Shown here in pieces: positions 11,332 through 59,408 of a stretch of DNA of 64,000 nt. Below the pieces are notes generated by a model. The model saw nothing but the letters and a program-made list of their open reading frames with translations, searched no databases and had not been told where the DNA came from. The stretch comes from Plasmodium brasilianum (lineage: Eukaryota > Apicomplexa > Aconoidasida > Haemosporida > Plasmodiidae), in the NCBI RefSeq assembly GCF_023973825.1, contig NC_090123.1, forward strand, positions 2,091,501 through 2,155,500, written 5' to 3'. The position numbers were made by a program, and so were the translations under genes. Position 1 is the first letter of the stretch; each line of letters begins with the position of its first letter.

Positions 11332-11350
11332 ATATTCTCTATATACTATA
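11332..11350 (+). promoter_or_regulatory. Conserved upstream element, gene at 11741
   Basis: ATATTCTCTATATACTATA, 409 bp before the ATG. It matches the consensus ATATTCTCTACRTTCTRTAT seen before every gene in the window. Role inferred from position only; it may mark the promoter or transcription start. Confidence 0.55.
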
Positions 11351-11740
11351 CTATAGATAAATTTAATATTTACAAATAGCAAAAAAAAAAAAAACATATT
11401 TTTTTTTTTTGAAAAGAATAATAACATTTATTCATTTACTATACTAGGTAACAAAATTTTATATTCTAAATACGTATGAATTTAAATAAATTATAATTAT
11501 TTTAATTAAATTAGATTTTAGAAAATAAAATTAAAATATAAATTTTAAAATAATTTATAACATTTATTTTTTTATTTCTGTTTTATAAAATGTATTATTG
11601 ATATTTTTGTTACATAATTTTTTTATGAGAACAGAATAATAAAAAATTAAAAAAATAGATGTAGTGTCACTATTAAATGTATATTACATAAATATAATTT
11701 TTTTTTAATTGAACATACTACAACATATATATTTTATATA

Positions 11741-12759
11741 ATGGAAAAAAAAATTATGTTACTCTTATTTATTAATATTGCTACTTTTATACCTTTAACA
11801 TGGATATGCCATTTTAGTAATGAAACTGTATGATAATATTATTTAATGATATTTGCAAATATTTCTTTTTCTTGTGCTGTATATTTATTAATACTTTTTT
11901 TTAGCATAATATTATTGATTCTTTTTAATTATAAATTTTTACTTTATTGTTTTAGAGGACATTTTATGGATCTTTGGGTGAAAACTATATAAATGACAAA
12001 AAATTAAATACAAAGAATTATCGATTGTTAGCAAAATGTAAACATAATAAGGATTCATGTACTATGGGGTTAAAAGAAGGGATACCAAATAATGATATGA
12101 AAGAAAGAAAAGATATATCTTATAATGAAAACATATTTGCACAATTAAATAGACAATCAAATAGAAGTTTATCAAGGAATATAGAAAGGCATAAAAAAGA
12201 TAAGAAAAATAATTCTCGTATATTTGAAACAGAACAATATTCCCGTATCGAAAAAAAGATATTCAAAGAACTTGATTATTCTAACTTTCTTAAAAACAAC
12301 AGGGGGATTAGTAATAGGATTTACCAAAAAATAATACGTAAAAAGTACAGATTTCGATTAGGTTTACCTATATTTTTTGTTTTTTTGTTATCCATATTAC
12401 TTTTACTAGATTTATTCGTGGGTTATGGACTTATAAATGGTTTGTTTAAGGTTTTGAATATTATCTCTAAACCTCTGGGATACGAAGATTATGGAAATGT
12501 GAAAGCGGTACAAGTAATGTTGAGACCTCTGCATGAATGGTTGAAAAAATCCCCTTTTAGTTCTTTCTTCGAATGTGCTGTTAATGTAACAAGTAGTACT
12601 GATAGCTTAATAGACAAACATTATTATATAACCGGTTTCTTTGGTTTTCTGATATATTTTATACCCCTCTTTATAATAGGTGTCACCTGTATATTAGGGG
12701 TTTTTTACTATCATAAAAAAGTTAAAAAATATGAGAAAATTAAGTTCAAAAAAAGGTAA
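11741..12759 (+). CDS. Two-exon exported protein, KIFKELDY type (provisionally fam-m), unit 1
   Basis: Exons 11741-11827 and 11956-12759; the 128 bp intron has donor GTATGA and acceptor TTTTAG, phase 0; about 296 residues. Exon 1 (29 codons) encodes a hydrophobic leader ending WICHFSNET. The start is the ATG giving the same 29-codon first exon as the paralogues. Exon 2 has the export-like motif NYRLLAKCK (residues about 50-58; fifth PEXEL position is Lys, not E/Q/D), a charged low-complexity stretch, the family core IFETEQYSRIEKKIFKELDY then FLKNNRGISNRIYQKI (about 119-155), membrane segment 1 (about 164-185), an ectodomain-like loop with two Cys, membrane segment 2 (about 255-281) and a basic tail YYHKKVKKYEKIKFKKR. 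Family knowledge: P. malariae fam-l/fam-m proteins are thought to be exported and have no known function. A fam-l-type partner starts 3.7 kb downstream on the same strand. Confidence 0.88.
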
Positions 12760-15050
12760 AAAGAACAATAAGTAATACGAACCTTTCTATATGGAAATGA
12801 TTAATGTGATGTAATAAAATTTCTATATTTAGGTATATATCTATTAAACATTCTTATAATTGATTACTTTTATTTAAGTGCACCTACATGAACAAAGAAT
12901 TTTTGATATACAACAATAGAAAAATATATTCTTAGATTTTTTTGAATTTGAACCTATTATTTTTCTTCAAAATGTATTTTAATTTATTATTTCATTTCAA
13001 TACATATTATGACTTAAAATATATATTTGTGTATTTATATATACCTTCATAGAAAATATATATATGCGTCTTAAAATGAATTTATTATAGTACAATTTTT
13101 ATTGTTTCATTTAAACCGTATATTATTTTATATTTGAACTATATGAAAAAATATTTTTTAATTTTTCACTTTTTCTAATTTAAAATTATTATATGTTGAT
13201 ATAATTTAAAAAATATGCTTCACTACTTTAAAATGAAAAATTAACGGGACTTACTTTGTGAGTAATTACATGAAGTTCATTCATTTCGTTGCATTGAAAT
13301 ATATATATATATTTACTTAAAAATACATATTAATTATTCTATAAATTGGGTTTTATGAGACATGTGTTATAAATAATACATATTTTAATAGTGCTTTTAT
13401 TAATTGTTTAACTATTTGTTCCTAGTTTGAAATGGAAAAAATAAATATATAAAAAAATAATAACTTTATTGTGTATGGGTTATCAATTATTTGCTTAAAA
13501 ACATTGAATTTGTGATTTTTTTTATTTAAGTGAACTGCTAAAACCATTTGTTATTTTATTATTGTTCATAATTTAGGAGTTAATTCAATTTTTAAAAAAA
13601 TAATTAAATTTAATTTATATTGAAAATTTATAAATAAATATACTGTATATATTTCATTATTTTTTACATCGTTAATGGACAACCTTACTGAATTAAATGT
13701 AATTATATATCAATAAATAGTACATTGAAATGGTTTTCGTTTCATTATTGTTTTTCCATAATTGTAGACATCTAAGAATGTACTATATATCTCTATAAAA
13801 ATAAAAATTTCTACTAAGGGTAAAAAACATAAATGCATTCTTTTTTTCACTAAAATAATCACAAGTAGATAAATATTTATATAAGAATTTTATTCTATAT
13901 GATTGTATTTAAATATATTAATTTGAAAATTAATATAATTTCATAGATGTACATATGTTTACATAGTCTATATTAACCATTAGTAATTTTTTCATATTAA
14001 TAATATAAATTTTATAAACAAAATAAAAATGAAAAAAAATATATTTTTATATAAATGATTTATAAATAGATAATATTTTTTTATTCTTTTAATAAATATT
14101 ATTAAATTATATCAAAATGAGGACACAATTTTTGTAATAAAGTTTTGCCTAAATAATACTAATTTATAAGAATTTCCATGTAACATTTTCCCAAGTAATT
14201 TATATGGTTATATGTTACTATTTATATAAGATTTCTTATAGATTCAAATGAAAATAATATTAAAATATTAATATATATATTAATTATCCAATTTATATAT
14301 TTTTTGAAAAGTATTTTTTAGTCAATATATTGACCAAAGTATATATTTTTCTTTGTAAAAGTATACATAGGACCTATAGAAAATTAGGCTAATATGTATG
14401 GGAATATAGTATGGTGAAAATAAATATATAGATAATAAAAATTTTAATAAGTACATATATATATTTTTTTTATTAATTAATATTAATAAAATTTTATTAA
14501 ACTATTTTAGTCCATTTATATAATAAATATATGCACAGAAAAGACAAATACTACTATTTTGACAATGTTTATTTTATTTATTTTTTTTCTTCCTATTTAA
14601 TATATATTCTATGTAAGAAAAAATTAATTAAAAAAAATATATAAAAAATTAAGTAGTTTAATATAAATATTTTTCTTTAATTAATAGTGGTATATATTAA
14701 ACATAATTAAAAATAATATTCAAAAATTATGGTAGAATATTAAAAAATCAATTTTTATTTGTATTTATAATATATGTTTCTGCTTATATGAGTTTGTAGT
14801 TTATATATTTAATACTATAAAGGATTGTATGGGTTGAGGTATTATCTAAAGCTTCTGTTTTTATTATTATAAAACAAAATATAATTCTATCATTATATTA
14901 TTACCATTGATATACTGTTAAAATAATATATGTTTTTTAAGAGAAATGAGAGATCCTTCTAAAATAAAATGCTTATACTCTTATTATTATTATTATAGCA
15001 TCCATAAAAATTGTACTTATAGTATTCATATATAGAGAATTATATTATCT
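12760..15050. other. Intergenic region inside doublet, unit 1
   Basis: 3' flank of the fam-m-type gene and 5' flank of the fam-l-type gene. About 0.8 kb shorter than the equivalent in units 2 and 3. No coding potential seen. Confidence 0.65.
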
Positions 15051-15070
15051 ATATTCTCTACGTTATATAT
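15051..15070 (+). promoter_or_regulatory. Conserved upstream element, gene at 15475
   Basis: ATATTCTCTACGTTATATAT, 424 bp before the ATG. Here it forms a perfect inverted pair with TAGAGAAT at 15033-15040 (ATTCTCTA at 15053-15060), separated by 12 bases. Confidence 0.6.
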
Positions 15071-15474
15071 TCTATATAAACATAACATTTAGATATATTT
15101 TGAAATCATTTATATTTTTGTTTGCTATTTTCTTTTGGAAAAATTTAATAAAAAAAATTACTTAATTAGTGTACTACATTAAATAATAAAACTATAGTAT
15201 TTGAATAATTATGAATAAAATTATATTATCTTATATTGACGAGAGTTAATTTTTTATAAATAAAATTAAAATTAAAATTTTAGAATATGTATTTAAAATT
15301 TTTTTACTGTATATGTTGTAGCATGTGTTATAGTTATATAATTTTTATTAATTTTTTACAAATCAATAACAAAAAAATATTTGTAAAATAAATATAGCAT
15401 CCCTTGTTATTAGAAGTATGTTATATTGTTATTAATTGTTTTCTTAATATATTAGAACATTAAATATATATATA

Positions 15475-16374
15475 ATGGAACGAATAGCTAAGTCAATCTT
15501 ATTTATTAAAATTTCTGCGTTTATCCTTTTAACTGGTATATGTCATTTTAAAAATGATGTGGTATGATATTATCATTTAAGGGTATTTACATTATTCATA
15601 CTGTACTGGTTCTATTATTATTAATAATGTTTCATATAATTAATTATTTACCTATTATATAACAAATACATACTTTATATATTTTTTTATTTTTAGAACA
15701 CGTTTAATAAATCCATAAATGAAGACTACACGCTTGGCAGAAAATTAGATATAAAAACTTTTAGATTACTGGCAAAATGTAAGCAGAATAAGGATTCAAA
15801 TATTTTAGGGTTAAAACAGAATATACAAAACAATACAAAGTGCAAAAAAAAGGATATAGCTATTAATGAAAAAGGAGACAAAAGTAAAATCAAAAAATCT
15901 AATAAATGTTCATTTAATAAGGCACAATATTATACCGAAGTTATAGATTATAATAATGGAATATTTGATGGAAAACATTTCCATTTTGAAAAAAAATGGA
16001 TTAAAAAAAAAGATTATGATAATTTTCTTGAAAAAAATAGGAGAATTCGTGATATATCTTTAAGAAAAATAAGATTTAGAAAGTATGGTATTGGAGTTGC
16101 TTTATTTTTTCTTTTTTTCTTAATGGGAATTGGAATACCCATATTACCAGCAATAACACCTTTGAAAGAAGCGTGGGAGTCACTCGGTGAAAGTAAATCA
16201 TGGGGAAATTGGAAAAAAGCTATAGATGGTTTCGCAAAAAGCTTAGGAGACTATGCTTTTATAATATTATTCACAATATTTATCGTTATATTATCTGTTA
16301 TTCTTATAATAGCGATTTATAGGATCTTACGAAATAATGAAAAATATACAAAAATGAAGTTAATATTGGAGTAA
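15475..16374 (+). CDS. Two-exon exported protein, YYTEVIDY type (provisionally fam-l), unit 1
   Basis: Exons 15475-15561 and 15697-16374; 135 bp intron, phase 0; about 254 residues. Exon 1 reads as a leader ending ILLTGICHFKNDV, and GTATGA would stop translation at once if unspliced. Exon 2 begins NTFNKSINEDYTLG. It has the RxL motif TFRLLAKCK, then the diagnostic block QYYTEVIDYNNGIFDGKHF followed by KKWIKKKDYDNFLEKNRRI, a basic stretch, membrane segment 1 (ALFFLFFLMGIGIPIL), a loop of about 35 residues, and membrane segment 2 (FIILFTIFIVILSVILIIA) with the tail YRILRNNEKYTKMKL. An ATG-only search sees just the last 83 residues, because no ATG lies in exon 2 before the first membrane segment. 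The frame is open from 15697 without interruption. It is the downstream member of a head-to-tail doublet. Function unknown; probably an exported membrane protein. Confidence 0.87.
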
Positions 16375-19300
16375 AATAAATAATAAAATATGTATATATA
16401 TCTGTAATGTTCTTTTTTATATGAAGTAATAAATGTAATATCCTTAGAGATATACTTAATAAGAAAACATATAATTGCTAAAGCATTGGAACCGCCCATG
16501 TGTATAAGTATTCTCTTTTATAAAAAGCAATAAAAAAAAATATTTTTTACATACTTGTGAATTTATATGTTTTAATGTTTTAGAATTTTAGTTTTAAACT
16601 ATTATTTATGCATAATTTTTTTTGGCATAATATATATATTTGTATATTTAAATATATTTCTATGAATATATAAGTTTTTTCTTTAGAGTAAATATATAAT
16701 AGAAAAATAAGTAGTTTTAAAGAATTGTGATAATTTAAATTTTTACTAATGTTTTTTTTTTATATATTAAATTCTCTTTCATTCTAAAATTATTATTTTT
16801 ACATCTTATTAAGAAAATGTATTATTATTAATTTAACCATAAGGATGTCTTTTTTTGTATTTATGAAAAGAAATAAACATATTTCAATATATCAATATAT
16901 ATATATTATTTTTAGTTAGGAATGTATTTAATATTTGTTCTATATGATATTCTTTATAAGAAGCATATTACAAAATATATTAATTATAAAAATATTTTTA
17001 TCAGAATTTTAGTTAATTTTTTATAGAGTAAATGCAAAACTATAATAATATAATGTAATAATATCATTTTTAAATGATAATTATATATAATTGCTTAATT
17101 AGAATTTATAAATTATTACAACTATATGAAATTTTAAAACCATCTCTTATACTATTGTTGTTACTAATGTGTTAATTATATTCTGCATAAAATATTTATA
17201 TATAAATTATATAGGCAATTTATAGATAAATATAATATATGTGCTTTTTATTATATTATATCGTTCTCTTACTAAATTAATGAATTAATTTTAATTAGAT
17301 TTTAATAAGTCATCTTTTGTAATTTTTATTTAATTTATTTTTAAATATTATTTATATAATATATAAAATCTCTTTGTTTTAATTTAAGTTACTATTTCAA
17401 TATGTGGTACGAATTTTAAATTATCCATGGTTTAGAATGATTGTTACTCTGAAAAAATTATATAACATGAGATAGAATATTACATATAAATAAAATATTT
17501 ATGGTTATTTGTTTTGACATGAGAAACATTTTATTTTTTAACGAAAACACATTTGTTGAAAACTTAACATCCTTTATTACGATGTTTAAATAATTTTAAT
17601 GATAAAAAATATTTCCCTTTTAATTATGCAAAAATATTAGTAATTATTCTCGTTCAGTACTAAGTTCACATTTTGATCTTTTAAAAGTGAATTTCTTTTT
17701 TTTTCATTTTATATTAGCATAATGGGTACTTTTTTAATTATGTAGTTTTTGTAGCTCTTCGAATAAGTTAATTACTGTTAGCTTTGTATTATATAAATTA
17801 GAATGACTGCTACTATTTAGTTTAATAATAATATTAGTATTATTAAGAACACATATCTTTAATATTATGAATAGGCACTTTACATATTTTTGAAATTTTG
17901 CATTTTTTTTTTTCGTAAGTTCTCTAATTAATTACCAAGCTTTATATTTTTATTTTTGTTGCTACCTCAGAATATAATAGTCCAAGGAACATCATTTAAT
18001 AGGTAATTTCTATAACATTGAGTATTAATATAAACCTATTATTTATAAATTCTTCATAATATTTTATTTAGTAATTAGTTTTATTTTTTGTGTGTATAGT
18101 AAAAAATTATACTTTTATGTATCTTACAGTATGCAAAATATATAAATTTAAAAATGAGTTCATTCTTCTGAATGTAGCTAATTTAAGCAAAAATCATATT
18201 AATAATTCTTTGATTTATATAGTGGTACATCTTATGAAAATGAGGTAGTTCAAATTTTTTGAGAATACATAATTATATTATTTTTAGTGTTTCTACAAGA
18301 TGAAAATATTTTATTGTTTTTTCTAGTTTACTGTAAAACATTTGGAATATGCAATAAAACATATAAATTTTTACAATATATTAACGACAAAATATGAGTA
18401 TCCCATGATGATAATATGAAGTTCTAACTTTTACATAATATTCTTAATCAATAAATATTTTATATTGAATACTCACCTAAATATGCATACAATTATAATA
18501 ATTTGCTCCTATTATATATTAATATAATTAATCAAGTATTACAAGTACTTACTTTGAGTTTGTCATAATGGTAGTATTTTTATGAGAAAATGTTATAGTA
18601 AAATACGTGAAGAAAAAATTATATACATGAAATACATACCAGTAAGCATTAAAAAGTTTAAAAAAATTATATATCTTTGTTGTTTACGTATAATATTTCA
18701 TAAAGGTTCGTAACGTTTCCTAATTTTTTATTTTTGATGCATAAAAAAAAAACATGCCATAAGATTTTCTTGACTAAAATTTTTAAAGTAAATTGAGGAT
18801 ACTTATAAATGTATTAATTTCATCGCATCGTGAGTTTTCGAATTGTTATGTACACATTTTTTCTTTTTTTTTGTGTAGAGTAATTTTCATATAGTTAAAG
18901 TACTAAGAAATAGAAAAGAAATGAGATATAAAAATACAAAAATAATTAATTTCATTAGATCATAATATTATACATATATACATGTAGGAAAACTAAAATA
19001 AGTAAATGTTCATCTTAATATTCGAAGAATACTGATAGTTACTTCATATCATTACCTTTATATTGTTATGTATTAATTGTCGCTTTATTCAAAATGTCAT
19101 AATATTTTAATAAATTTTTGTTATTTAGAATTTATAGATAATTAATTATTTCTTGTTTTTGAAAATAAATTATACTAAAATTACATTGTTCTAATTTTGT
19201 TTATTTGTATGGAAATATTTAAAAATATTAATAATTCAAATTCAAGTATTATATAGAATTACAAAATACAACAAAACTGAAGAACACTCTTATAGGATAA

Positions 19301-20215
19301 CATAAAGAAAAATATTACAGAAATATTCTTTTGTATAAGGAATAAAAATTATTTATATAAAAACTGCATAAACGGAAAAACAAATATGATAAAAGAATTT
19401 TTATACAACTGAAAATCTTGTTTTTAAGTAATTATTCTTATTCCATGGTGCTATTAGCTCGTCGTTTATTTGTATATTTATAAAATAAATAAAGTTAATT
19501 ACATGACAACAAATTTCTTTTTTACTAGAAGCCACCAAAAGAAAAGGTAATTATATATTTTTGACAGGTATAACTTTAATACCTTAAAAAAGTTAAATTA
19601 TTCACCCAAAAAATTAAAGAAAATGATTTTTTTTGAATCTTCGCATATTATGTTTTTAATTTTTATATGATATTATTGTTTTTTAAAATATATTTTTTTT
19701 CTTCTCCTCAATTTTTAATGTATTTTAAGTATTTACATGTGGGCACATATTCCTTAAAAGTTCTTTCGTACATGTATTCATATCTATCTCTTATCTCACA
19801 TTTTTATTTTTCTCTTTTACATCGTTTTATTCTGCTTTTCTTTTGTTTCTAATTAATTTCTGAAAAATTAAAATCAAAAAATAAGAAATTATTAAACGTT
19901 AATGGTATTCATGCATGAATTTTTAAAAATACTGTAGGGCTAAATTTGAATTTTACAGTTGTATAAAAGTCACCGAAATGTGTGAATAATGTTTAACTTA
20001 TATAATAATTGTTATGATATGCGCAATTAAAAATGGAAATTTTTTTTTATTTTCTGTACTTAGGGTATCATTTTTCATTGTATCTATAAGTATTAATGGA
20101 GTATACGTGCGCGTACCTTAGTAAATATAATATAAGAGAACTAAGTGAATGAACATTATGTATATGTAAGAGATATGAGTATTATATTCATGAGAAGTAC
20201 GCTTTATTTTTTTAG

Positions 20216-20694: not shown

Positions 20695-20795
20695 GTGTAC
20701 ATATACGTGTGCATACATTTGTGTATATGTACATGTATGCATGTAAATGAATAAAGGAGCACGTATACGTGTACATACGTATACTTACATAATAT
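20695..20795. repeat. TG/TA alternating tract, unit 2
   Basis: Dense alternating purine-pyrimidine words (TGTACATGTATGCATG, CGTGTACATACGTATAC) with short palindromes. The same place in unit 3 carries a similar tract. Open frames across it are composition artefacts. Confidence 0.5.
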
Positions 20796-26633: not shown

Positions 26634-27086
26634 ACTTTAAAAAAATAAAAAGTAATATAAAAAAATTTGATATATTTATAAACTTTCCTTTTACATAGAA
26701 TAGCATATATTATATCTAGTTAAATACTATAAGCTTCAACAATTATACTAAAAAAGTAATGGATCAGCTTTTATTTACCTTTTAAATATATACTTTTTCA
26801 GTAAGTCATATACTATAAATTTGATGTTATAAATACATTATAAATCATAAAATAAGGCATACACTTAAAAAAGAACTAATGAGCATACTACAAAAAAAAA
26901 TAAAACAAAAGGTTGTAAAACAAAATTGTTTTCTTCATTTATTATTATACTGTTATAATTATTAATAATATTATGTTAATAACCTGTTTTTCTCTAATAT
27001 AAATGTTAAAAAATTATAATAATTAACAAGTTAACGTAAATTTAATGAGAAATACTTCACTTAATATACACAAAAATATATTATCT
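25083..27086. other. Intergenic region before the unit 2 fam-m-type gene
   Basis: Aligned with unit 3 (CTAGTGAGGT at 25985 against CTAATTAAGT at 42552). Contains the TA microsatellite at 26606. The 60-codon frame at 25994-26176 is not kept in unit 3. Confidence 0.6.
26606..26633. repeat. TA microsatellite
   Basis: Uninterrupted alternating TA over 28 bases in the spacer before the gene at 27500. The equivalent place in unit 3 (near 43170) is shorter. Confidence 0.9.
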
Positions 27087-27105
27087 ATATTCTCTACGTT
27101 CTAAA
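27087..27105 (+). promoter_or_regulatory. Conserved upstream element, gene at 27500
   Basis: ATATTCTCTACGTTCTAAA, 413 bp before the ATG. It is kept in a gene whose splice donor is damaged. Confidence 0.6.
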
Positions 27106-27499
27106 TTCCATATATATACACAATATTTCGAAATATTATGAAATAATATATATATATATTGTTTTATTTTGAAAATTAAAAAAATAACAATTTAATTAAT
27201 TCTCTATATTGAATAAATAATTTTTATATTTTGAATATTTCTTACTGAATTCAATTTATATTATATTATGTAAAGTTATATTCTTATAAACAATATTAAT
27301 ATTAAAATTTCAGTATATGTTTTTGAAGTTATATTTTTTTCTCTATTGTGAGAGAAATTGTAAAAACATATTTTTAATTTCTTTTATGATAAAATAATAA
27401 AAAAAAAATAAATCATAATAATGTCTTTTATGTTTAAAAAAACATATTATTGTTAATTATATATCTGATCAGTATATTATTGTATTATAGTTTTTTAAC

Positions 27500-28560
27500 A
27501 TGGAAAGAAAAACAATGTTACTATTATTTGTTAAAATTACTGCATTTGTCCTCTTAAGTTATGTATACCATTTTTACATTTATATGATTATTATAATTTT
27601 AAGTGCATATATAATATTTATTTTTTTCGAGTTTTATTTTGGTTAGTAATTTTTTTTTGCTAGAATTTATTCATTAGAATAAATAATAATTTTTTTTTAC
27701 ATTTTTAGAGTAGGCGAAGTAAATCTTTGGTTGAATGCTACAACAAACGTAGAAAGTTATACGGAAGAAATTACCGTTTAATGGCAAAAAATAAGCAGGA
27801 TAAGGATTCAAGTATTTTGTATTTAAAAGAAGAAATACCAAATGGAGTAAATTATATAAAAGATATATTTAATAATGAAAAATGTACCTCAGGAAAAACG
27901 AAACAATCAAATGGAAGTTCACAAAGAAATAAAAGAGTACATAAAAAAAATATGAAGAATAAATCTTGTATATTTGAAACGAAAAAATATTCTCATTTAG
28001 AAAAAAAAATATTCAAAGAACTAGATTATGTAGATTTTCTAAAAAACAACAGGACAATTAGTGATAAGATTTACAAAAAAATAATACTTAAAAAATGCGG
28101 ATTACGAGTAGCTTTACCTTTATTACTTTTTTTAGTGTTAACAGTATCATTCATATTAGATAATTTTTGTGGATGTGGACTTACACGTGGTTTGTTAAAA
28201 TTAATAATACATAGTTCACCTGTTGTAGAGGTTGATATACTTAAAAATAATCCATTTTTTTCTCATATTACAAGAATTAAACCATTATCAGAGGTATTTG
28301 AAAAGGATGAAATCTCTTCCGCATTTGCATACTTATATGCCTTTTTGACGAAGCCATCTCTAAATCCGTTCACCCAAGCTTTGGTGGAAACCACAAGTAA
28401 TAGTGTAAAGAAGGTGAGAAACTACTGTGTGTCAGGTTTTTTGGGATTTCTTATATATTTTGTGCCCATATTCATATTAAGTATAATTCTTATATCAGGA
28501 CTTGTTTATTATCATAAAAAAGTTAAAAAATTTGATAAAATTAAACTCAGGAAAAGGTAA
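27500..28560 (+). CDS. Two-exon exported protein, KIFKELDY type (provisionally fam-m), unit 2, splice donor altered
   Basis: Exon 2 is 27709-28560 (acceptor TTTTTAG, phase 0, 283 residues). Exon 1 starts at ATG 27500. The paralogous donor position after codon 29 (27586) reads TATATG|ATTATT, where the unit 3 copy has TATATG|GTATAT, so the expected GT is gone. The nearest in-phase GT is at 27563 (TAT|GTATAC), giving a 21-codon exon 1 and about 304 residues with a shortened leader. Otherwise the gene is a frameshift, mistranslated or unspliced copy. Exon 2 is intact: NYRLMAKNK (weak export motif), CIFETKKYSHLEKKIFKELD, FLKNNRTISDKIYKKIILKK, membrane segment 1 (ALPLLLFLVLTVSFILD), an enlarged loop, membrane segment 2 (GFLIYFVPIFILSIILISGL) and YYHKKVKKFDKIKLRKR. 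Probably functional only if the cryptic donor is used. The fam-l-type mate is 4.5 kb downstream. Confidence 0.75.
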
Positions 28561-30211: not shown

Positions 30212-31586
30212 ACAGTTCACTTAATGTTTATGTATTATAAAAGGTTAAGAATAAATATTTTATAAGACAATTAATCTATTTGTATTTTATTACTTAATAT
30301 AGCGAAAACATAAATAATATGGAAAATTATAGATTATTTTAAAAATAAATGCTCAAAAAATCTTCAGAAATGATGAATATTTCTAAAATAGAAAAAGTTA
30401 TTCATAAATAATTGTTTAAAAAAATTAAAATAAAAAACTTATTTTTAATAATTTTAGAATTTATATATGGACGGTTTTACAAATTATTTATTAATATCTT
30501 ATATGAGAAAAAATGTTGAACCATTAACTCATAGTATCAGTTTAACGTAAATTAATAAGAGTCTTCATAAATGATACAATAAATGTATATATTGTGTAAA
30601 TCTATGAAATTTTAATGACAATTTTAGTAATATCTTTTTTCTAATTTTTTAATTATTATCTTGAGAAAATCATACTTTCTAACATCAATAATATTATGCT
30701 ATATTTCAGATAATTACAATAAATTATTATAGCCATATTATTTTAATAATTATAATTCCTAGTGTTCTAATACATAAGATGAATAAATATTTCGATATTA
30801 TAAAATATTTTTATTAAATACATTTTTAAAACAATATTATTTATATATTCATGTGGATTTACTATGTTGTAACTTTAAGATATGTTCGTGATCTTATATA
30901 TTTACAACGGAATAAATGAAAAATGACTTGTCAGTTAAAAACTGCAGCAGAAAAATACTAAAAAGTACATTTTAATAAATTGTATTTTTATTCTTTATCA
31001 TTTGTTATATGTATAATATACACAATATATATTATCCTTATTTTTAAATTTACTTTTTTTGAAATATCCTTAAATTAATGCTAGTGCAAATGATATTTCT
31101 GTAGAGGTTTTTCCCTTAACATATATTTTTCTTTTTCTTTTTTTAATATATTAGTATATCTTCTATGAGCATATAATTAATTAAAAAGAAATTAAAGTTT
31201 TAGATATATGAATATTCAAAATTTTCATTTAGAAAATAATTGAATAAATTAAAAAGTGTAACTTTTAAAATTTATGCTACAAAAAAAAAAAAAATTAGTT
31301 TGTATTTTCTTTAAGAATTGACAGTACTTCGTAGATTATGTAGATCTTATAAGTATGATTTTTTAAAAAAATAGAAACACTAAAAAATTTTATGTGCTTG
31401 AGTACTAATTAATGGAAGTGTTATAATTAACATTTCATATGTTATTTTTTTCTTTTATAATTAATTTTATTATAATTATACTTAATTAGTTTTTAAAAAA
31501 TGTGTTTACAAAATTTGAATTATTATTAGGATACCATACTTAAAATTGATAATTGTTGTCCTATTATGTCGAGAAATATATTTTAT
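28561..31586. other. Intergenic region inside doublet, unit 2
   Basis: Homologous to 45003-48101 through most of its length. Contains the TA microsatellite at 30177. No gene seen. Confidence 0.65.
30177..30204. repeat. TA microsatellite
   Basis: 28 bases of alternating AT between the doublet genes of unit 2. The unit 3 equivalent near 46640 is about half as long. Confidence 0.9.
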
Positions 31587-31606
31587 ATATTCTCTACATT
31601 CTGTAT
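31587..31606 (+). promoter_or_regulatory. Conserved upstream element, gene at 32013
   Basis: ATATTCTCTACATTCTGTAT, 414 bp before the ancestral start position (32001). An imperfect inverted arm GAGAAATATA lies at 31571-31580. Confidence 0.6.
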
Positions 31607-32012: not shown

Positions 32013-32886
32013 ATGAAGATAATTATATTTACTAATATTGGTTCGTTTATTCTTTTAACTTGGATATATCATTTTAACATTGATGTGGTATGATAACGTT
32101 ATTTAAATATTTTTGTATTATTCTTAACTTTTATGTTTTATATTTATTAATAATATTTTGTAATAATAGTTTATTTATATATTTAAATAATAAATATCTA
32201 CCTTGTTCATTTAGAGATATTTTAGTAAATTTTTGGAAGACAATTATTACCATAATAATAAATTAGATGCAAGAACTTATAGATTACTAGGAGAATATGA
32301 AAAGCTCAAAGATTCAAAAATTGTATATTTAAAAAAGGATGTACCACATAATGTAAAATACGAAAAAAAAAATATATGTAATAATGAAAAATGGACGGCA
32401 AAAAAAGAATCTAATAGAAATTTATTGAATATGGCTCATTATTATACTCAAGTTACAGATTACAATGATGGAATATTTGATGGGAAGCATTTCCATTTTG
32501 AAAGAAAATGGATTAAAAAAAAAGATTATGAACATTTTCTTGAAAAAAAAAGAAGAATTTGTGATATATCCTTAAGAAAAATAAAACTTAGAAAATATAA
32601 ATTTGGAGTTGCTCTATTTTTACTTTTTTTCTTTTTGGGAATAGGATTATCCGTATTACCGGGATTACCATTTATGAAAACTGTAGATGATTGGATAAAA
32701 AGTGATGAATTATTGAAAAGTTTGTATAGTTCTCTAGAACAGGCAGGAAAAACAGGGATGTTCTATATTTATATAGCATTATTTAGTGTAATTGTGGTTG
32801 TATTATCGGTAGTAGTTATAATAGTAGTTTATAGGATTTTAAGGAATAATGAAAAATATAATAGAATTAAGTTAATGACGGAGTAA
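32013..32886 (+). CDS. Two-exon exported protein, YYTEVIDY type (provisionally fam-l), unit 2
   Basis: Exons 32013-32087 (25 codons) and 32215-32886; 127 bp intron with GTATGA donor, phase 0; about 248 residues. All well-formed paralogues here start four codons earlier. The matching position, 32001, is TTG instead of ATG, so the start is taken as the next ATG (32013), which leaves the hydrophobic leader intact (IGSFILLTWIYHFNIDV). Exon 2 begins RYFSKFLEDNYYH and carries TYRLLGEYE, the only copy in the window whose motif fits strict PEXEL (RxLxE). Next come HYYTQVTDYNDGIFDGKHFH, RKWIKKKDYEHFLEKKRRI, membrane segment 1 (GVALFLLFFFLGIGLSVL), a short loop, and membrane segment 2 rich in Val (ALFSVIVVVLSVVVIIVV) with YRILRNNEKYNRIKL. 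Function unknown. It is the second member of the unit 2 doublet. Confidence 0.85.
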
Positions 32887-37390: not shown

Positions 37391-38742
37391 ACGAATTTAT
37401 ATATTTAAAGACATATACTTTCTTATATTTTAAAAAAAGCACCTTTATGTTTAAACGTCAAAAATTATATTGAATTATTTTCTATGTTATTAACATGATT
37501 TATGGAAGCATGTTTTCCTACATAAAAGCAATAATATCTAATAAAACAAATAGGATGCATTTTTTACAGCTTGATTTATCTATTTCATTTTATGCTATCA
37601 TTATAGAAATTCGTTATTATTTCTGAGATTCGTACATATATGTATACATTTTTTTATTATGTTGTTGTACCATGCATGTGTAACATGAATAAAGGAATCC
37701 ATGGGAATAATACTTTCATAAAGTTACTAATGCTCATTTAATTTATTAAAATAAAGATAAATAGAATAAGAAATTCATTATGGGAGAACAATTTTATGTC
37801 ATTAACTGAATCAATTTTAGGATATAATTGAGTTCATACCTATACACGTTAGTAGAATAGCATTATTCATTATTAGATGCATTTGTTAGCACATGACAAG
37901 CAAGCATATATATATGCTTATTTATACTCTCTACCATTGTATGTTTTAGATTATTTATAATGAAAAGTTATAAAAGGGAAAACATGTGTACACATGTATA
38001 TGTATACAGACTTTTAAATATTGGAAATTAATTTACATTACTTTACAGATATTACCAATTTATGTTTATTTTTTATACATCTGAAAAATTTGGAATAAGT
38101 ACATGTACTTAAAAGAGAATGGAACGAATGATAAAATTAAGATAAATAACAAGAAAATATAAGGACAATGCATGAATTCGCTAAAAGAGTTACTTACCTT
38201 AAGGATGTTAACAAAGAAAAGGGATAAGAAAACATATATATTGTAACTCACTTGAACAGTGAGCTGGTCAAATATATTATTTGGAAAGGAAATTCGTTTA
38301 ACTGTAGCCTATTTTATGTTACATTAGAAATGTTAGCGTACTTCTGATTACCTCTATTAAATATCTTTATATGGAAATCAATTAATGTATTCATTGTAAA
38401 CATGGAGAATACAAAAAAAAGGATATAAAAAATACAAATATATTAGAGGCAATGGTATAACCAAAAATCCAAAATCTATTAGTTCATTGTAGTATAATAG
38501 AAAACATTTCATATATGTAACTAAGTGTACATATACATACAATGTACTATGTTGATGGATATGTTCATTATTTTCACAAAAGTAAAACAAGTATTTAATA
38601 TAAGATACATGTGTAGTAATAAAAAATATGAATAAGGTAATTATGTATACAAATATGAATGTAATACATGAATTTATTTGTAACATAAAAAAAGGAAAAC
38701 TTATAATTTAATTTTTTTTGTTTTTTTTTATAATAATTACAT

Positions 38743-41640: not shown

Positions 41641-43566
41641 TGTAAAGTTATAGATAATTCAACTAGTTCAGCAAGAACATTAATCAATAAATGAGAATCT
41701 TCTATATATATTCCATTTGAAGTGATAAATATATTTTTTTTTTTTTGGAAATCTATTATATAGATAATTTTATTATATATATTGTAGGAAATATATAAAT
41801 TACGCCCAAAGTATAAAATATTCGGCTTGTATGATTATCTCTTTATTATTTACTCTATACAAAAACATTCATATATAATGTTTTTGTTATTTTTTTCTAT
41901 ATTTTATTCCATTAAAAAATTTATTGTCTATTATAGAATGAATTACAAAGACGATTATTATAATCTAGTGAGAGAACCATAACTGTATTGTATTTCATTT
42001 CTTTATTATGTATTTTAGTGTTTATTTATGTTTTTGTAAAATTTTTAAAATAAACAGTTGCAGTATGAAGAACTGAAATTATATCCTATATACATTTCAT
42101 ACATTGTTTTCAGAAATAATATTTTTCATGAATCGAATAAAATTTCGCTTTACGCTTAATGAAATTATAATCTCACATAAAACAATTGTTGTATAATTTA
42201 AACTATTTTTTTATGCCTCCTCGATAATAAACAAATATATATTACTGCACAAAAGTAAAGAAAAATATATTAAATATTTTTAACAGTTCGCGTGTTTTTA
42301 CCTTAGATTTATTATAATAATTAATTATTTTGGTGTAATTTAATACGTTTGTTCATTTTATGTAAATATATATCTTTCTCAACATACAAATGTGAAATTG
42401 ATATTTCTCTATATTAACAATATAAATATGTGCTTAATAAGCATAAATTATATATACAATATGTATCATGTAGATTTACATTATGATAAATATGTGATCG
42501 TTTAATTTAATATGTAGGATTACAGATAATATAGATTCACTAATCTAATTAAGTAATTTATATTTTTAAAAATTATTTATTTTTATTTTTTTTATGGTGT
42601 TAAGTGATTATTTTTATGAACTTTTAAAAAAATTCGTTATACATTAATTTTAATTTCCATAAATTACGCTTTTTTCATATAGATAAAACAAAACCATATT
42701 ATTTTTTGTGTTTATATATATTTTTTATTTAGAAATAAATATAACAAGTCATATTTATATAAAAACATTATGTGAAATACAGATTTCATAACTTATTTGA
42801 TGTAAAGTTTGTTTCAGTAGATTTTTTATATTTTTCAAGTATGAAATTATTAATAAATAAAGACATAATTCTACATTAATGTATCAATTATTAACGGAAC
42901 ATTATCTATTTAAAAATTCTTGAATTATTATTTATAAATGACGGGATTAAACGTTTTTCAGATTAGTTTTTATCTTATGTAATTTTTGGAGTTAAAAACT
43001 TTTTAAAAAAATTATTTAAATATATATGAAATATATATTGACAAAAAAAAATATTCATTTTATCATCGAATTAAATAACTAAAGTATATTTTCTATAACA
43101 TTATTATGTTATATACTTTGTACAAAATGACTCTATAAATATTTATTTCTTTTTTTCTGTATTTCTTATAAATATATATATAACATTACAAAAATAAAAG
43201 GTAATATAAAAAAAGTAGATAATCTTACAGACTATACTTTTATATAAAATAGTATAAATTATATCTAGTTAGATACAATAACCTTCAACAGTTATTTTTA
43301 AGAAGTAAATGATAAGCTTTTATATACCTTTTAAATATATACTTATTAAGTCATACGCTAAAAATTTGATGTTATAAATATATTATAAATCATATAATAA
43401 AGAATATATTTATGGGGTAACTAGTGACATGAGGACAAAGAAAATAAAATAAAATTGTATAACTTATTCTTATTTTTCCTTATTATTATACTGTTATAAT
43501 AATTAATAAGGAAAAATTAATTAAATGAGTAATTCTTCACTTAATGTAGATAATTATCTTTTTTCT
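41641..43566. other. Intergenic region before the unit 3 fam-m-type gene
   Basis: Copy of 25083-27086 with a shorter TA tract near 43170. Nothing coding. Confidence 0.6.
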
Positions 43567-43586
43567 ATATTCTCTACATTCTATAT
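43567..43586 (+). promoter_or_regulatory. Conserved upstream element, gene at 43990
   Basis: ATATTCTCTACATTCTATAT, 423 bp before the ATG, a full match to the consensus. Confidence 0.6.
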
Positions 43587-43989: not shown

Positions 43990-45002
43990 ATGGAACAACA
44001 AATTAAGTCACTGTTATTTATTAAAATTTTTACATTTAGCTTTTTATGTTGGATATGCCATTTTTACATATATATGGTATATTAATATTACTTCAGGAAA
44101 TTTGTATTATTTATATTTTTTGTGTTGTGTTTTATTTAATGCTGTTTTTTAGAATGATATTATTTAATCGTATATATAATAATTATTGTTATTATTTTTT
44201 TTAGATGGCATTGAACAAACTTTTTGATATTAACTACAATCATCATAGAGAATTATATACAAGAAATTATCGTTCAATGGCAAATTATAAACAGTATAAT
44301 CATTCAAGTATTACATGTATTAATGAACAGTTACCGAACGGAGTGAACAATAAAATTGATATAATTAGTAAAGAAAAATATGCTGAAAGAAACAAAAAAC
44401 ATTCAAATAGAACTTTATCAACTAGTGCAAAAAGTCATAGAAAAGATACAAAAAGCAAATCTTGTATATATGAAACAAAAAAATATTCCCGTTTAGAAAA
44501 AAAAATATTCAAAGAACTTGATTATGCAGATTTTCTTAAAAACAACAGGACAATTAGTGATAAAATTTATAAAAAAATAATACTTAAAAAATGCGGATTA
44601 CGACTTGCTTTACCTTTATTACTATTTTTGGTGTTAGCAATATCATTTATATTAGATAAATTTTGTGGATATGGGCTTACATCTGCTTTGTATAATGTAA
44701 TAATTTATTTTTCACCTGTTGAAAAAATAACTATTTTACCTAAGAAGATAATAAATATGTCTCCGGCCATAAAAGATTTATATGATTTTTTGAATAAACC
44801 ATCTCTAAAATGGTTCACACAAGTTTTGGTAAAAAAGGAAGGAACTACAAATATATGGGAAAATCATTGTGTACCATATTTTTTGGGATTTCTAATATAT
44901 TTTGTGCCTTTATTCATATTAGGTATCATACTTATATCAGCGGTTTTTTATTATCATAAAAAAGTTAAAAAGTTCGAAAAAATTAAGTTCAGGAAAAAGT
45001 AA
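43990..45002 (+). CDS. Two-exon exported protein, KIFKELDY type (provisionally fam-m), unit 3
   Basis: Exons 43990-44076 and 44205-45002; 128 bp intron, donor GTATAT, acceptor TTTTTTTTAG, phase 0; about 294 residues. The leader is MEQQIKSLLFIKI...LCWICHF. Exon 2 happens to begin with ATG (44205), but the upstream 29-codon exon matches every paralogue, so 43990 is preferred. The export motif is degraded: NYRSMANYK has Met for the conserved Leu and Asn at the fifth position. The core is strongly conserved with the unit 2 copy: CIYETKKYSRLEKKIFKELD, FLKNNRTISDKIYKKIILKK, then membrane segment 1 (ALPLLLFLVLAISFILD), a loop, membrane segment 2 (FLGFLIYFVPLFILGIILIS) and YYHKKVKKFEKIKFRKK. The closeness to the 27500 gene in the core, compared with the divergent loop, suggests the loop evolves fastest. 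The mate is 4.5 kb downstream. Confidence 0.88.
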
Positions 45003-48000: not shown

Positions 48001-48101
48001 TTTTTCCAAAATACAATGTTTGAAAATTTTGAATTATTAATAGGATAATATCCTTAAATCAGTAATTATTATTTTAACATACAGAGAGATAAAATATATA
48101 C
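45003..48101. other. Intergenic region inside doublet, unit 3
   Basis: Copy of 28561-31586. No open frame of note. Confidence 0.65.
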
Positions 48102-48120
48102 ATATTCTCTACATTCTGTA
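48102..48120 (+). promoter_or_regulatory. Conserved upstream element, gene at 48512
   Basis: ATATTCTCTACATTCTGTA, 410 bp before the ATG, with an imperfect inverted arm AGAGAGAT at 48083-48090. Confidence 0.6.
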
Positions 48121-48511
48121 AATGAATTCAATATTTACATATAATAAGAAATCACATATATACTTGTTTATGCTGAAATTGATTAAAAAAAGTATATATT
48201 AATTAGTGCTATACATTAATTAAATTATAAATTTTAAACATTTATGAATATATTAGAATTACCACATTTTCATAAATGTTCTATTTTTCTAAATAATATT
48301 ATGATAAAAATAATGTATTATATTTTTAAAGTTATATTATGTTTTATGTGGTAAAATTAATTATAGATATATACTTTTTATTATATATTTATGAATCACT
48401 AATAAATAAAATTTTTTAAATTAATATAGTATCTTTTGTCACTAGGCACATTTTATATTTTTATTTATTTTTTTTTATTTTGAATTAATAAAAATATTTA
48501 ATATCTATATA

Positions 48512-49376
48512 ATGGTTCACAAAATTAAGTTGCTCTTTTTTATAATAATTTTTACATTTATACTTTTAACATGGATATACCATTTTAACAGTGAACTGGT
48601 ACAATTATATAATTTATAGATATTTACGTTATTTATATTTTTAATGTTTTATTTTTATTAATAATTTTACGTAGAGTGAATTTTTTATCTTTTATACAAC
48701 AAATATATCTTTTTTATTTTAGTGTACGTTCAACAAATCTGTTGATAAAAACTATAATCGTAGTGAAAAATTAGAAACAAGATGTTATCGAATACTGGCA
48801 AAATATAAACAGCATAATGATTCAAATAATGTGTATTCAAAAGAAACGTTTACAAATAATGTAGGAAATAATCAAAAAGAAATATATAAAAATGAAATGT
48901 GCAGAAAACGAAAGAACATACAATCAAACAGAAGTATATTAAATAAGGAGCAATACTATACAGAAGTTATAGATTATAATAATGGAATATTTGATGGAAA
49001 ACATTTCCATTTTCAAAAGAAATGGATAAAAAAAAAAAATTATGATACTTTTCTTGAAAAAAAAAGGAGAATTTGTAATATAGCTTTAAAAAAAATAAGA
49101 TTTAGAAAATACAGATATGCGGCTTTTATGCTCTTTTTTTTTTTCCTTTTGGGAATAGGATTACCCATATCATATAAATTCGTGTCGTCTTCTGGAGTAG
49201 ATACTAAGATTTTAGAATTCCTTAAAACAATACTAGATTTAAATGATAAAGGACATGCTTTTATATTATTATTTGCAGTAACTTTCATTATGTTATCAAT
49301 CTTAATTATAATAGCTATTTATAAGATCTTAAGAAATAAAGAAAAATATCAAAAATTTAAGTTTATGACAGAGTGA
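48512..49376 (+). CDS. Two-exon exported protein, YYTEVIDY type (provisionally fam-l), unit 3
   Basis: Exons 48512-48598 and 48723-49376; 124 bp intron, donor GTACAA, acceptor TTTTAG, phase 0; about 246 residues. The leader begins MVHKIKLLFFIIIFTF and ends LLTWIYHFNSEL. Exon 2 begins CTFNKSVDKNYNRSEKLETR, carries CYRILAKYK (RxL present, Lys at the fifth position), then QYYTEVIDYNNGIFDGKHFH, KKWIKKKNYDTFLEKKRRI, membrane segment 1 (FMLFFFFLLGIGLPISY), a loop, and membrane segment 2 (FILLFAVTFIMLSILIIIAI) with YKILRNKEKYQKFKF. It is complete, with no lesion seen. It ends the third 16.5 kb unit. The next gene downstream (52931) is a different type, so the regular alternation stops here. Confidence 0.87.
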
Positions 49377-52300: not shown

Positions 52301-52530
52301 ATATAAATAAAACCGTAAAAATTACGATTTTTAAAATTATAATTATAAAATATTTGTAAAAATGTTTCTATTTTAGTTCATTATTACTATTATTATATTA
52401 TGATATGTATTTTTTAAAATAATAAACTTTTGTTCCAAAATATAATGTTTATCTAAAAGTAATTATTAGTAAGGAAATATAATTATAATTAGCATTTATT
52501 CTCTTAATATACAGAAAATTGTATAATGTA
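49377..52530. other. Intergenic region between fam-l-type gene and divergent third-type gene
   Basis: Starts like the other fam-l 3' flanks, sharing GTCCTTTTTTGTATTTAATC-like sequence near 49866 with 33360 and 16850. It then ends like a gene 5' flank, so the full 11 kb spacer is missing. The 72-codon frame at 50715-50933 follows an acceptor-like TTACAG, but no family or partner exon is seen. Confidence 0.55.
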
Positions 52531-52550
52531 CATTTTATACATTGTATACT
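52531..52550 (+). promoter_or_regulatory. Weak upstream element, gene at 52931
   Basis: CATTTTATACATTGTATACT, 400 bp before the ATG. It keeps the spacing but lacks the TTCTCT core, so it is the weakest of the set. Confidence 0.3.
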
Positions 52551-52930
52551 TTTTATAAAATGAATGTTTTCAATTATTGAGAACTCATATATTTTTTTTT
52601 AATTTATTTTGAAAAGGATTGGTATAATATTTATTTAGTTATTTTACTGCACTAAATAACAAAATTAAGTATTTTATATAATTATTAATACATTAAAATT
52701 ATGTTATTAAATTAGTGTTTGCCTTTTGTGAATAATATTAAGGTTAAAATATGTTAATACAATTTTAGAGTTCCGTTACATTTTCCATGTTGTAATCTGT
52801 ATTATACTTATTATATGCGTATTATTATTTTTTTATTAAAAAAAATATAGTGTCCCTTTTGAATGAAAATATATTTATTGTCAATAATTTGTTATTAGCA
52901 AGACCTAATACTATATTAAAAATATACAGT

Positions 52931-53772
52931 ATGAAAGTGAAATATAAGCTACTATTATTTATTAAAATCGAGACATTTATCATTTTAACATGGATATATC
53001 TTTTTAATAGTGAAGTCGTATGACATATTTTAATTAAAGTTACCTTTGTTGTTCATTTTTGTGTTTTTTATATTTCTATTGATATTTCATATTACGATTT
53101 ATTTATTTTTCTATATTTTGAATATTTCTTTTGTTATTTTAGAGTAACATTTGTAAATATTTGTATGAGAAGGACGTTATTGATGAAAAATTATGTACAA
53201 AAAATTATCGCTTACTAGCAAAGTATAAAAAGGAAAAGTGTTTAAATATCGCACATGAAAAAAAAGGTATTCGATATAATGGAGAATACGAAAAGAAACA
53301 TATAAATAAGAATGAAAGAGTGTCCAAAGGAAAAATTAAACTGCCAAGAGAATGTACCTCAATTAATTCAGTAGGCTATAATCAAGTTGGGGAAAATAAA
53401 TCTTCAGTAAACAATAAATTAAATAACTATTCTGGGAAAAGAACGTTAGACAAAATATATTATAAAAATGTACTTAGGTATTGTACAAATTCTGATTTTA
53501 AGTTTATAAAAAAATATATACAAAGAAAAGATAGTGAATTTTTTGTTTTATTTATTGTCCATTTAATAGTTGGAGTAATATATGCACTATTATTTGGTTT
53601 ATTTAAGTATGCTAAGGCAGGTGAAAAGCAGATTATTAGAAATATTGTACCAATATATATATTATGGATTATTATTTTAGTAGGGTTTTTTTACATCTGC
53701 ATAAAATCTATAAAATATGGAAAGTTATTACGTATAAAGAGTGATATGTATTATACGAAGCATCTTTCTTAA
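52931..53772 (+). CDS. Two-exon exported protein, divergent third type related to fam-l/fam-m
   Basis: Exons 52931-53017 and 53143-53772; 125 bp intron with GTATGA donor, phase 0; about 238 residues. Exon 1 (29 codons, MKVKYKLLLFIKI...ILTWIYLFNSEV) and the start of exon 2 (SNICKYLYEKDVIDEKLCTK, then NYRLLAKYK) match the other genes. The rest lacks both diagnostic cores. Instead it has a Ser/Asn/Lys-rich linker, then RTLDKIYYKNVLRYCTNSDF and KFIKKYIQRKD, followed by two membrane segments (FFVLFIVHLIVGVIYALLFGLF; IVPIYILWIIILVGFFYICI) close to the C-terminus. This KIYYKN...NxDF arrangement resembles exported proteins of unknown function that I recall from P. vivax-group genomes; this comes from memory, not from a search. 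It lies 4.4 kb after the unit 3 fam-l-type gene, a spacing like that inside the doublets. Its upstream element is the weakest match of the eight. Confidence 0.8.
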
Positions 53773-56700: not shown

Positions 56701-58107
56701 AAAAGTTTGAATGTGTAATGTCTTATATTTATTTAATTAAATATTGTAAAAAAAAAAAAAAAATAGATTAACTTTTTAAATATATATTATTAAAACATGC
56801 TTAAAATATAAAATGAATGTTACGCACTTATAAATTATCTATAAAAAAATAATCCATTTTTTCATTTTTATTCTGTTTTAAAAATAAGATTTATTTTTTA
56901 AGATATTATTTTCTGTCATTATAAACTATAAATATATTTATATATCATAAAAAAGGTATTAACACTCTATATAATATATATATAAACCTTAGGAAAAATT
57001 ATAACATATATATAAATATATGCATATATATATTTACATAATTTTATGAAAAGTTATATGTAATTTTACTACCTTAAAAGAAAATTTTTATATTTATATA
57101 TATATAACACGTTCTTAGAACTGAACTATTTTGAAAAAACTAAGATAAAAAAAGAAGAATTTTAAATATATTATTTCTACATATATGTGATAATATTTAA
57201 TTCATTATTTTATACTTTTAATGAACTAAAAAAAAAAAAAAATATATATATAGTACATTTTTAAATATTCACTATGAAATTAGCGGCGTAATTATGAATA
57301 TTAATAAAACATTTAATGGCTTCAATTATTAATTTAGTTCTGATGACTTTGTAGTATTAATTTATCAAAAAATTATAAATAATACACATTTTATAGAGAC
57401 ATTATTTTTTGATATATTTATAAAATATGATATATGATTTTCAAAAAAAAGAAATAAGTATATATTATAATGTATGTTACAACATATATAGATTATAATA
57501 TATTTCTCATAATTATTATTTTATAAAATATATATTAACAGTTATTTTTTAAGGTAAATAAAATTTGTTTTTATATGTCAAATAAATAATATGCGTTTAC
57601 TTTGTTTAATTGAAATCTAAAAAATTTACATTTATTATCATTTTAAAGATAATTAGAATTTTTACCATAAGTTGAACCAATAAAATACTTGCATTCTACA
57701 AAAATATAAAAACATGAAGTACTATTTTTAGTTCGAATATAGATAAGGCATTATTCGTATACAATGATTTGTATTGTCCTTTTATATATTAATTTTAGTT
57801 CACAAAACTATATTTTTTATAAGATCCTATTGAAATAGGAATATTATATATATTAAACCATAATATGCAATTAAAGTGAAAAAATAATATAAAATAAAAT
57901 TTTAAAAATATAATAACATTCATATTAATGAAAAAATGATTAATTTAACTTTTTTTTTCTTCTGTATTAAAAAGAAAAATTATACATACATGTATTATAA
58001 AATAATAACAGTTATAAGTATGTTTTATAAGAATGTATTCCGTAAAAATATTATATATATATTAGTTATTGTTGATAACTTCCTTACATAAAAATGTTTA
58101 TTTCTAA
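53773..58107. other. Convergent intergenic region
   Basis: Lies between the 3' ends of the 52931 gene (+) and the 58975 gene (-). The right half, about 56430-57900, is homologous to 59870-61500 at an offset of 3.42-3.44 kb; for example CCATGTATACATTTACAAGG near 56532 corresponds to the CATATGTGGAAAGTTGCAAAGG-like region near 59973. No gene seen. Confidence 0.55.
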
Positions 58108-58975
58108 TTATTCATTTAATTCAGACATTAACTTAATTTTATTATATTTTTCATTATTTATTAAGAGCTTATATAACGCTATTAGAAGTATGACAGATAA
58201 TATAACCATTAATATCCCAAATGATATTAAGAAAAAATATTCTTTTGCTCCTTTCAAGACATTTTCTACTGCTTTCCATGCGCCACACAAATTTAGTGCA
58301 TCCTTAAGTTTATCTTCTGCAGTTTTCAAGTAGTCAAAATATTGTAATATTGGCAATCCAATTGCGAACAAGAAAAAAAGGAAAGTCATAAAAGCTCCAT
58401 ATCTGTATTTTCTGAATTTTATTTTTTTTAAATCTATATCACAAATTCTCCTTTTTTTTTCAAGTAAATCATCATAGTCATTTTTATTAATTAATTTTTT
58501 TTCAAAATGGAAGTATTTACCATCAAATATCCCATTATCATAATCTATAACTTCTGTATAGTACTGCGCCTTATTTAATAAACTTCTATTAGACTGTCTG
58601 TTTTTTCCTTTGTTAATCTCTCCATTGAATGGTTTATCCTCTTTAAGATCTAAATTATTTGAATCTTTATTCTTTTTATATTTTGCTAGTAAACGATAAC
58701 TTCTTGTATTTAATCTTCTACATGGTGTCCAATTCTCAATCAACAATTTTTCATTAGTTCTCTAAAAAAATTATGTTAATATACGTTATTTCACACAATA
58801 AATAATCTAATAATAATAAAAATTATTAAAAAAAATAAAACATAAAAAATATAAAATTTACAGAAATCCATACATAACATTATCATACTGTATCACAACA
58901 AAAATGACATATCCAACTTAAAATCATAAACGCAGAAATTTTGAAAAATAAGGTGGTATAAATTTTTTGTTCCAT
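58108..58975 (-). CDS. Two-exon exported protein, YYTEVIDY type (provisionally fam-l), inverted copy
   Basis: Minus strand: exon 1 58975-58889 (29 codons, MEQKIYTTLFFKI...ILSWICHFCCDT), intron 58888-58762 (127 bp, donor GTATGA, acceptor TTTTTTTAG), exon 2 58761-58108; about 246 residues. Exon 2 begins RTNEKLLIENWTPCRRLNTR and has SYRLLAKYK, QYYTEVIDYDNGIFDGKYFH, a slightly altered KKLINKNDYDDLLEKKRRI, membrane segment 1 (AFMTFLFFLFAIGLPIL), a loop with one Cys, membrane segment 2 (FLISFGILMVILSVILLIAL) and YKLLINNEKYNKIKL. It is complete and looks intact. It is the only intact gene on the minus strand and converges with the 52931 gene. A fam-m-type pseudogene lies upstream in the same orientation, so the fam-m to fam-l order is kept but the block is inverted. 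Confidence 0.87.
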
Positions 58976-59388
58976 TGTATAGTTTATTAATATACATATA
59001 TATTCAGCAAGGGAAAAATTAATAACTATTTATTTTACTGCTTATTATGGGGGATGCTATATTTATTTTTAAAACAATTTGTTTTTATTACTTCATGAAT
59101 ATTTAATAAAATATATATAATTACTATGTATTTTACTGTATATACAAGGAATAAATCTTTAAAAATATTTAAAAAGTTTTTATCGTTAATGATATAAAAA
59201 AAAAAAAATAACTAACATTCATTAAAATAAAATAATATATGTTTATTTATAAATATTGAAATAATATTATGTAATTATTTACTCTAAATAACTGGTTAAA
59301 TAATATATGTATTAATTTTTTTTCATAAAATACAAAAAAAAAAAAATAAATGATTTATTATTATACGAAAATATCCAGTTTACATGCT

Positions 59389-59408
59389 ATGTAGAATGTT
59401 GAGAATAT
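59389..59408 (-). promoter_or_regulatory. Conserved upstream element, inverted gene at 58975
   Basis: On the minus strand ATATTCTCAACATTCTACAT, 433 bp before the ATG. Orientation and spacing follow the gene even though the gene is inverted, which argues the element belongs to the gene and not to the array. Confidence 0.58.

Follow-up and report, generated by a model that had tools for sequence, protein, structure and literature searches.

A conserved upstream element at a set distance from fam-l/fam-m (DUF3671) genes of Plasmodium brasilianum, a putative family-specific regulatory site

Plasmodium brasilianum is a close relative of the human parasite P. malariae. In the gene table for the two species in PMC9671904, fam-l and fam-m are the most numerous gene families, and their products are presumed to be exported surface proteins. 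A stretch of 64,000 nucleotides (nt), bases 2091501-2155500 of contig 10 (NC_090123.1) and hereafter called the window, carries eight genes of these families in a genome of 31.37 Mb and 43 contigs. A preliminary description of the window pointed to a short element that lies 400-433 base pairs (bp) upstream of all eight genes and in their orientation. This raises the question of whether such an element belongs to the family as a whole and what it might do. We find that it precedes most sampled family members at a set place, and that it is rare away from family genes among the 104 examined sites with at most one mismatch. Its position and conservation suggest a cis-regulatory site that is specific to the family, lies in the promoter region and is bound by a protein, probably an ApiAP2 factor, a reading to which we give a probability of roughly 0.7.

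The element and the genes that follow it

The spacing and orientation given in the preliminary description are confirmed at all eight genes by exact distances from the motif start to the exon-1 ATG, and each copy lies on the coding strand (8/8). We sorted the genes into types A (three), B (four) and C (one), which are labels of this analysis and are not equated with fam-l or fam-m individually. The copies ahead of type A genes occupy 11329-11351 (three mismatches to the pattern first described, 409 nt to the ATG), 27084-27106 (one mismatch, 413 nt) and 43564-43586 (no mismatch, 423 nt). Type B genes follow copies at 15048-15070 (one mismatch, 424 nt), 31584-31606 (no mismatch, 426 nt) and 48099-48121 (one mismatch, 410 nt), all on the plus strand, and at 59389-59411 on the minus strand (two mismatches, 433 nt). 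Up to three mismatches, the window holds seven matches against 0.17 expected (standard deviation 0.38), a number reached by none of 100 shuffles, and all seven coincide with the sites first described. The type C gene follows a diverged homologue at 52527-52549 (plus strand, 400 nt). This copy, placed at 52531 with its best register at 52530, has a matrix score of 8.3, compared with a mean of 7.3 and a maximum of 16.8 in 30 shuffles, and is thus not significant alone.

All seven exon-2 frames submitted from the window scored above the curated Pfam cut-off for PF12420 ("Fam-L, Fam-M like protein", DUF3671). They lie at 11974-12759 (exon 1 ATG at 11741), 27727-28560 and 44205-45002 for type A, at 32233-32886, 48831-49376 and, on the minus strand, 58108-58746 for type B, and at 53161-53772 for type C. 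The remaining type B gene, with exon 1 at 15475-15564 and exon 2 homology at 15721-16377 on the plus strand, was outside these seven frames and joined the set by homology.

Going from gene to motif, we scored upstream regions with a weight matrix of 22 columns, built solely from the eight window copies. The sample comprised 40 motif-blind genes, 20 found in 200 kb with an exon-1 profile (at least 19 bits) and 20 listed PF12420 loci. In 35 of the 40, the best matrix site within 1.07-1.5 kb upstream falls at 360-460 nt, with a mean position of 422 nt and a standard deviation of 15.5; in-place scores reach at least 14 in 26 genes and are weak in nine. The corresponding binomial probability of 2e-31 assumes independent copies and overstates the certainty, because paralogues are not independent (for example, L034 and L044 share an identical site). 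On the opposite strand, maximum scores in the scanned genes stay at or below 11.2, with the single exception of 15.2 at window position 15474. The five genes outside the range are one with a site at 351 nt (score 15.1), one lacking a start codon, one of the type C kind, and C7 192007 and L048, which have nearly identical exon 1 sequences.

The reverse path, from motif to gene, leads back to the same family. Genome-wide there are 267 matches with at most two mismatches compared with four for a reversed-pattern control, and a looser pattern gives 54 exact matches against none. We examined 104 sites, all with at most one mismatch, 100 of them among the 267 matches and four from the looser-pattern search. 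For 80 of these, a listed exon 2 follows 511-695 nt downstream on the same strand; the opposite strand shows no such case among the 104, and four control distance bins are empty. Coordinate assignment undercounts because the gene lists are partial (150 of 1527 candidates scored), and it placed 87 sites ahead of DUF3671 genes once more gene coordinates had been added. Individual reading of the other 17 revealed an exon 1 at 411-440 nt in 15 cases, among them two short fragments and one that lacks a start codon; at the L080 site the exon-2 start was judged by eye, and the L064 site is cut by a contig end. In total, 103 of the 104 sites precede an intact or decayed DUF3671 gene, and the one remaining is the site cut by the contig end. 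We also considered pir genes as further carriers and rejected them, since none of the 104 sites falls within 1.5 kb upstream of 74 pir matches (among 110 listed). The preliminary description had proposed a motif scan of upstream regions against controls; a similar test, made here on samples, found the enrichment in both directions, and support is strong for the claim of a family-specific element common to both main gene types.

Five sites with scores of 14 or more, found in the window and the 200 kb, have no exon 1 nearby. At C7:164299 a site stands ahead of a decayed gene, and at C7:140753 on the plus strand (position 753 of locus L023) a site with a score of 19.5 and three mismatches has no recognisable downstream gene and appears to be an orphan or relic. 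Three weak gene-less sites (14.4-15.5, one at window position 14423 on the minus strand) are little above shuffled DNA, in which 0.2 such sites occur per 64 kb and strand.

Two further observations concern the genes and frames of the window. The minus-strand gene at 58108-58746 belongs to a close subfamily with relatives at C33:18194, C41:56531, C42:684, C13:76391, C43:236457 and C1:1324581 (exon 2 identity 73-88%). This gene and, by position, its C13 and C1 relatives point away from the nearest contig end, unlike the usual orientation, and the C13 and C1 relatives retain the upstream motif. An intergenic open frame of 102 amino acids at 38378-38686 on the minus strand is probably a chance product of AT-rich DNA.

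Anatomy and conservation of the element

The core of about 23 bp, TCTATATTCTCTACRTTCTRTAT, is made of phased TCTAYAT-like units. Among 42 unique copies (35 motif-blind and eight window copies, less one duplicate), TCTAYA has a density of 0.041 per bp in the core compared with 0.0009 in the flanks. Its start positions are -3 (11 copies), +4 (4), +6 (16), +13 (19) and +20 (7); the copy at 43564-43586 has units at -3, +6 and +13, and five of the 42 cores hold none. Four cytosines are conserved, those at +5 (37 of the 42 copies), +7 (32), +10 (31) and +14 (35).

The core forms an island of conservation. In the 35 in-place motif-blind copies, anchored on the motif, 20 core positions carry 1.07 bits per position compared with 0.11 (standard deviation 0.08) outside -40 to +70. 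Moreover, when 36 upstream regions (eight of them chosen through the motif) were aligned with gaps, no 15-bp window was better conserved than the element block, which exceeds even the start-codon region. Mean pairwise identity among the 42 copies is 0.75 in the island and 0.40 in ungapped flanks; with gaps, the left and right flanks reach 0.70 and 0.71, compared with 0.68 +- 0.05 for shuffled sequence, and are thus near saturation. Since all of these genes are subtelomeric paralogues, the island might be a passive relic without function, left behind by duplication or gene conversion and changing slowly, and the type C genes, whose flanks are at least as well conserved as the island, would be in keeping with this. 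Elsewhere, however, near-saturated flanks surround an island that keeps a mean identity of at least 0.70 in every flank-identity bin, and the island's sharp boundary and strand-specific spacing argue against chance retention. We therefore regard a relic as very unlikely.

Type C forms a subfamily of its own, with 15 matches over 140 bits to the window gene, itself included. The 15 fetched loci comprise 11 of the close subfamily (L049-L059) and four more distant ones (L060-L063). In nine of the 14 relatives with a usable exon 1 (L057 excluded), no site of the upstream stretch scores above the in-range one; six of these nine score about 13, and the other five loci are at background in range. Aligned with the window copy, the sites of the close subfamily are homologous and mostly read TTTTATAC...TTATATATTTTATA, compared with TTCTCTAC...TTCTATATTCTATA in types A and B; L061 and L062 retain TTCTCTA. 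Among the genome matches to the type C variant pattern, 11 of 22 lie 637-711 nt ahead of a listed gene by our reading of the coordinates. Within this young clade, the island does not exceed its surroundings in conservation and therefore provides no independent evidence of constraint, so we rejected type C as a proof of it. The earlier proposal that the third gene type shares the element thus stands by position and ancestry; it falls short in sequence, as the copy at 52527-52549 has lost three of the four conserved cytosines and scores at background. The element may be inactive in type C genes.

In three copies, the preliminary description saw the core paired with an upstream inverted arm. The arm matches in 8/8 positions at 15051 and 7/8 at 43567, in 6/8 at 31587 and 11332, and in 5/8 at 27087, 48102 and 59408; at the 52531 copy, the arm measurement was out of register. 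An RNA leader element, in which arm and core form a stem that acts on the RNA, would draw on the 7 of 42 unique copies with an arm of at least 7/8, compared with 4.4% in shuffles. Nevertheless, covariation is absent at the eight arm pairs, where Watson-Crick counts in the 42 copies differ by no more than 1.4 from the product of column frequencies, and a conserved RNA hairpin is therefore rejected; likewise, Rfam gave no match within the window at gathering thresholds. The appearance of an arm arises partly because of a conserved G at -16 (26 of 42 copies; 21 of 32 with C7 and 5 of 10 without) and of inverted TRTAGA units at -20 in eight copies and at -22 in four. The earlier remark on an inverted arm is borne out in part; the arm does not amount to a conserved hairpin, and an RNA stem is extremely unlikely.

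A putative protein-binding site in the promoter region

The element would then act as double-stranded DNA and regulate fam-l/fam-m (DUF3671) genes from within their promoter region, about 422 nt ahead of the ATG and on the coding strand. We infer that it is bound by a sequence-specific nuclear protein, most likely of the ApiAP2 type, whose tandem AP2 domains could perhaps read two neighbouring units. Binding would switch the family on or off together, including both partners of a doublet, and the choice of one gene would then be made by chromatin. A protein-binding site is favoured because strand and spacing are fixed and because a family-specific, repeated and cytosine-anchored core persists in AT-rich DNA. 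The genome contains 35 AP2-domain matches, some of them as neighbouring pairs.

Among the motifs in Table 1 of PMC6631176, the nearest is TCTA(C/T)AA of the P. falciparum ApiAP2 protein PF3D7_1239200, which agrees in six of seven letters and differs in the seventh (TCTAYAT). The TCTAYA of the core, enriched and phased as it is, is mostly followed by T rather than by the A of that motif. We take PFL1900w to be the older name of PF3D7_1239200. PFL1900w was assayed as a tandem two-domain construct and yielded three distinct motifs, according to the available text of PMC2965767. We treat this protein as a lead and not as an identification. A bolder version, that one ApiAP2 factor reads the phased TCTAYAT cluster and commands most of a two-part antigen family, from which type C would have escaped into a different expression programme, is conceivable but doubtful.

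Of the three roles named in the preliminary description (promoter, transcription start or regulator-binding site), regulator binding fits best. As a core promoter or transcription start, the element would position RNA polymerase, with the mRNA starting at or just past it and a 5' untranslated region of about 400 nt. Fixed distance and strand would suit this, as would the average 5' untranslated region of about 600 nt stated for P. falciparum in the available part of PMC7278070, which makes a start near -420 possible. In 50 genes, sense ATGs are halved over the 75 nt directly upstream of the start codon (24 compared with 48.6 expected; CAT 60 compared with 55.0), as a scanned mRNA leader should show, and they are low at -375 to -300 (29 compared with 47.8 expected). 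Evidence on the transcription start from these counts is weak, because a dip also occurs at -825 to -750 (41 compared with 57.1 expected) and the stretch between -300 and -75 shows no depletion. Furthermore, base composition does not shift at the motif, and in the examined samples the element is confined to one gene family, as a general core element would not be, which makes a transcription start rather unlikely. In 51 genes, T runs peak at -250 to -150 and A runs at -150 to -100 before start codons, a possible promoter signature.

The element could also serve chromatin or recombination instead of activation, as a nucleator of silencing, a site of nucleosome phasing or a hotspot of subtelomere exchange. 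It is subtelomeric and usually present once per gene, and PF3D7_1239200 is listed with P. falciparum MORC co-purification, where the signal is weak (-log10 p 0.25), in the available text of PMC11483127, and in one GCN5-complex pull-down in that of PMC8396726. Recombination, however, needs no strand-fixed spacing to a start codon, and the left and right flanks are equally unlike among the copies. We consider such a role unlikely.

Several points weigh against a family-specific regulatory site. Among the 40 motif-blind genes, four lack a site close to where one is expected, besides the fifth exception at 351 nt, and the motif score tracks only weakly how far exon 1 resembles that of the window genes (Spearman 0.34, p 0.03, n 40). 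All copies arose by duplication, so that counts are not independent; the core was placed at the best matrix score, which inflates its conservation; and island identity of single pairs is as low as 0.39. The type C element is without the cytosines at +5, +7 and +14, and its variant pattern is less specific, with 22 genome matches compared with four for the control. Finally, the agreement with PF3D7_1239200 concerns six of seven letters of an AT-rich motif.

Comparison with known elements and factors

The genes studied here are the same as the fam-l and fam-m genes of Rutledge et al. 2017 (PMC5326575). In their accessible portions, the accounts of these families in PMC5326575 and PMC9671904 describe no upstream element, and the former is without the word promoter. 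Likewise, nothing was found in the open-licence literature on the control of fam-l/fam-m or on an upstream element of theirs, with subscription papers outside the scope. The element could be used as bait for finding the regulator and for the annotation of family genes and their promoters. Moreover, it allows testing the joint expression of doublet partners, which the proposed heterodimer would need.

Other known motifs fit less well. In Table 1 of PMC6631176, the motif of AP2-O4 (ATTCTAGAA) and that of PF3D7_0613800 (CTCTAGAG) have ATTCTA or CTCTA in common with the core. Unlike these, the core consensus has no TCTAGA palindrome, and both P. falciparum motifs were rejected as a poor fit. The P. 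berghei element in the available text of PMC12120095 is a different motif, AGGTAA.

The closest parallel in kind is SPE2 of P. falciparum upsB var genes, also a conserved element upstream of subtelomeric antigen genes, whose ApiAP2 binder PfSIP2 has, as given in PMC6631176, two AP2 domains in tandem. We considered the element as an SPE2/PfSIP2 site and rejected this, as core sequence and spacing differ: the SIP2 motif, GGTGCAC (Table 1 of the same source), has a link to heterochromatin and occurs as tandem arrays some 2 kb upstream, whereas the fam-l/fam-m element consists of TCTAYAT-like units at about 422 nt, in one cluster per gene. Conserved upstream elements of antigen families are thus already known, and the fam-l/fam-m element is therefore of the same kind; what is new here is its sequence, its spacing and the gene family that carries it.

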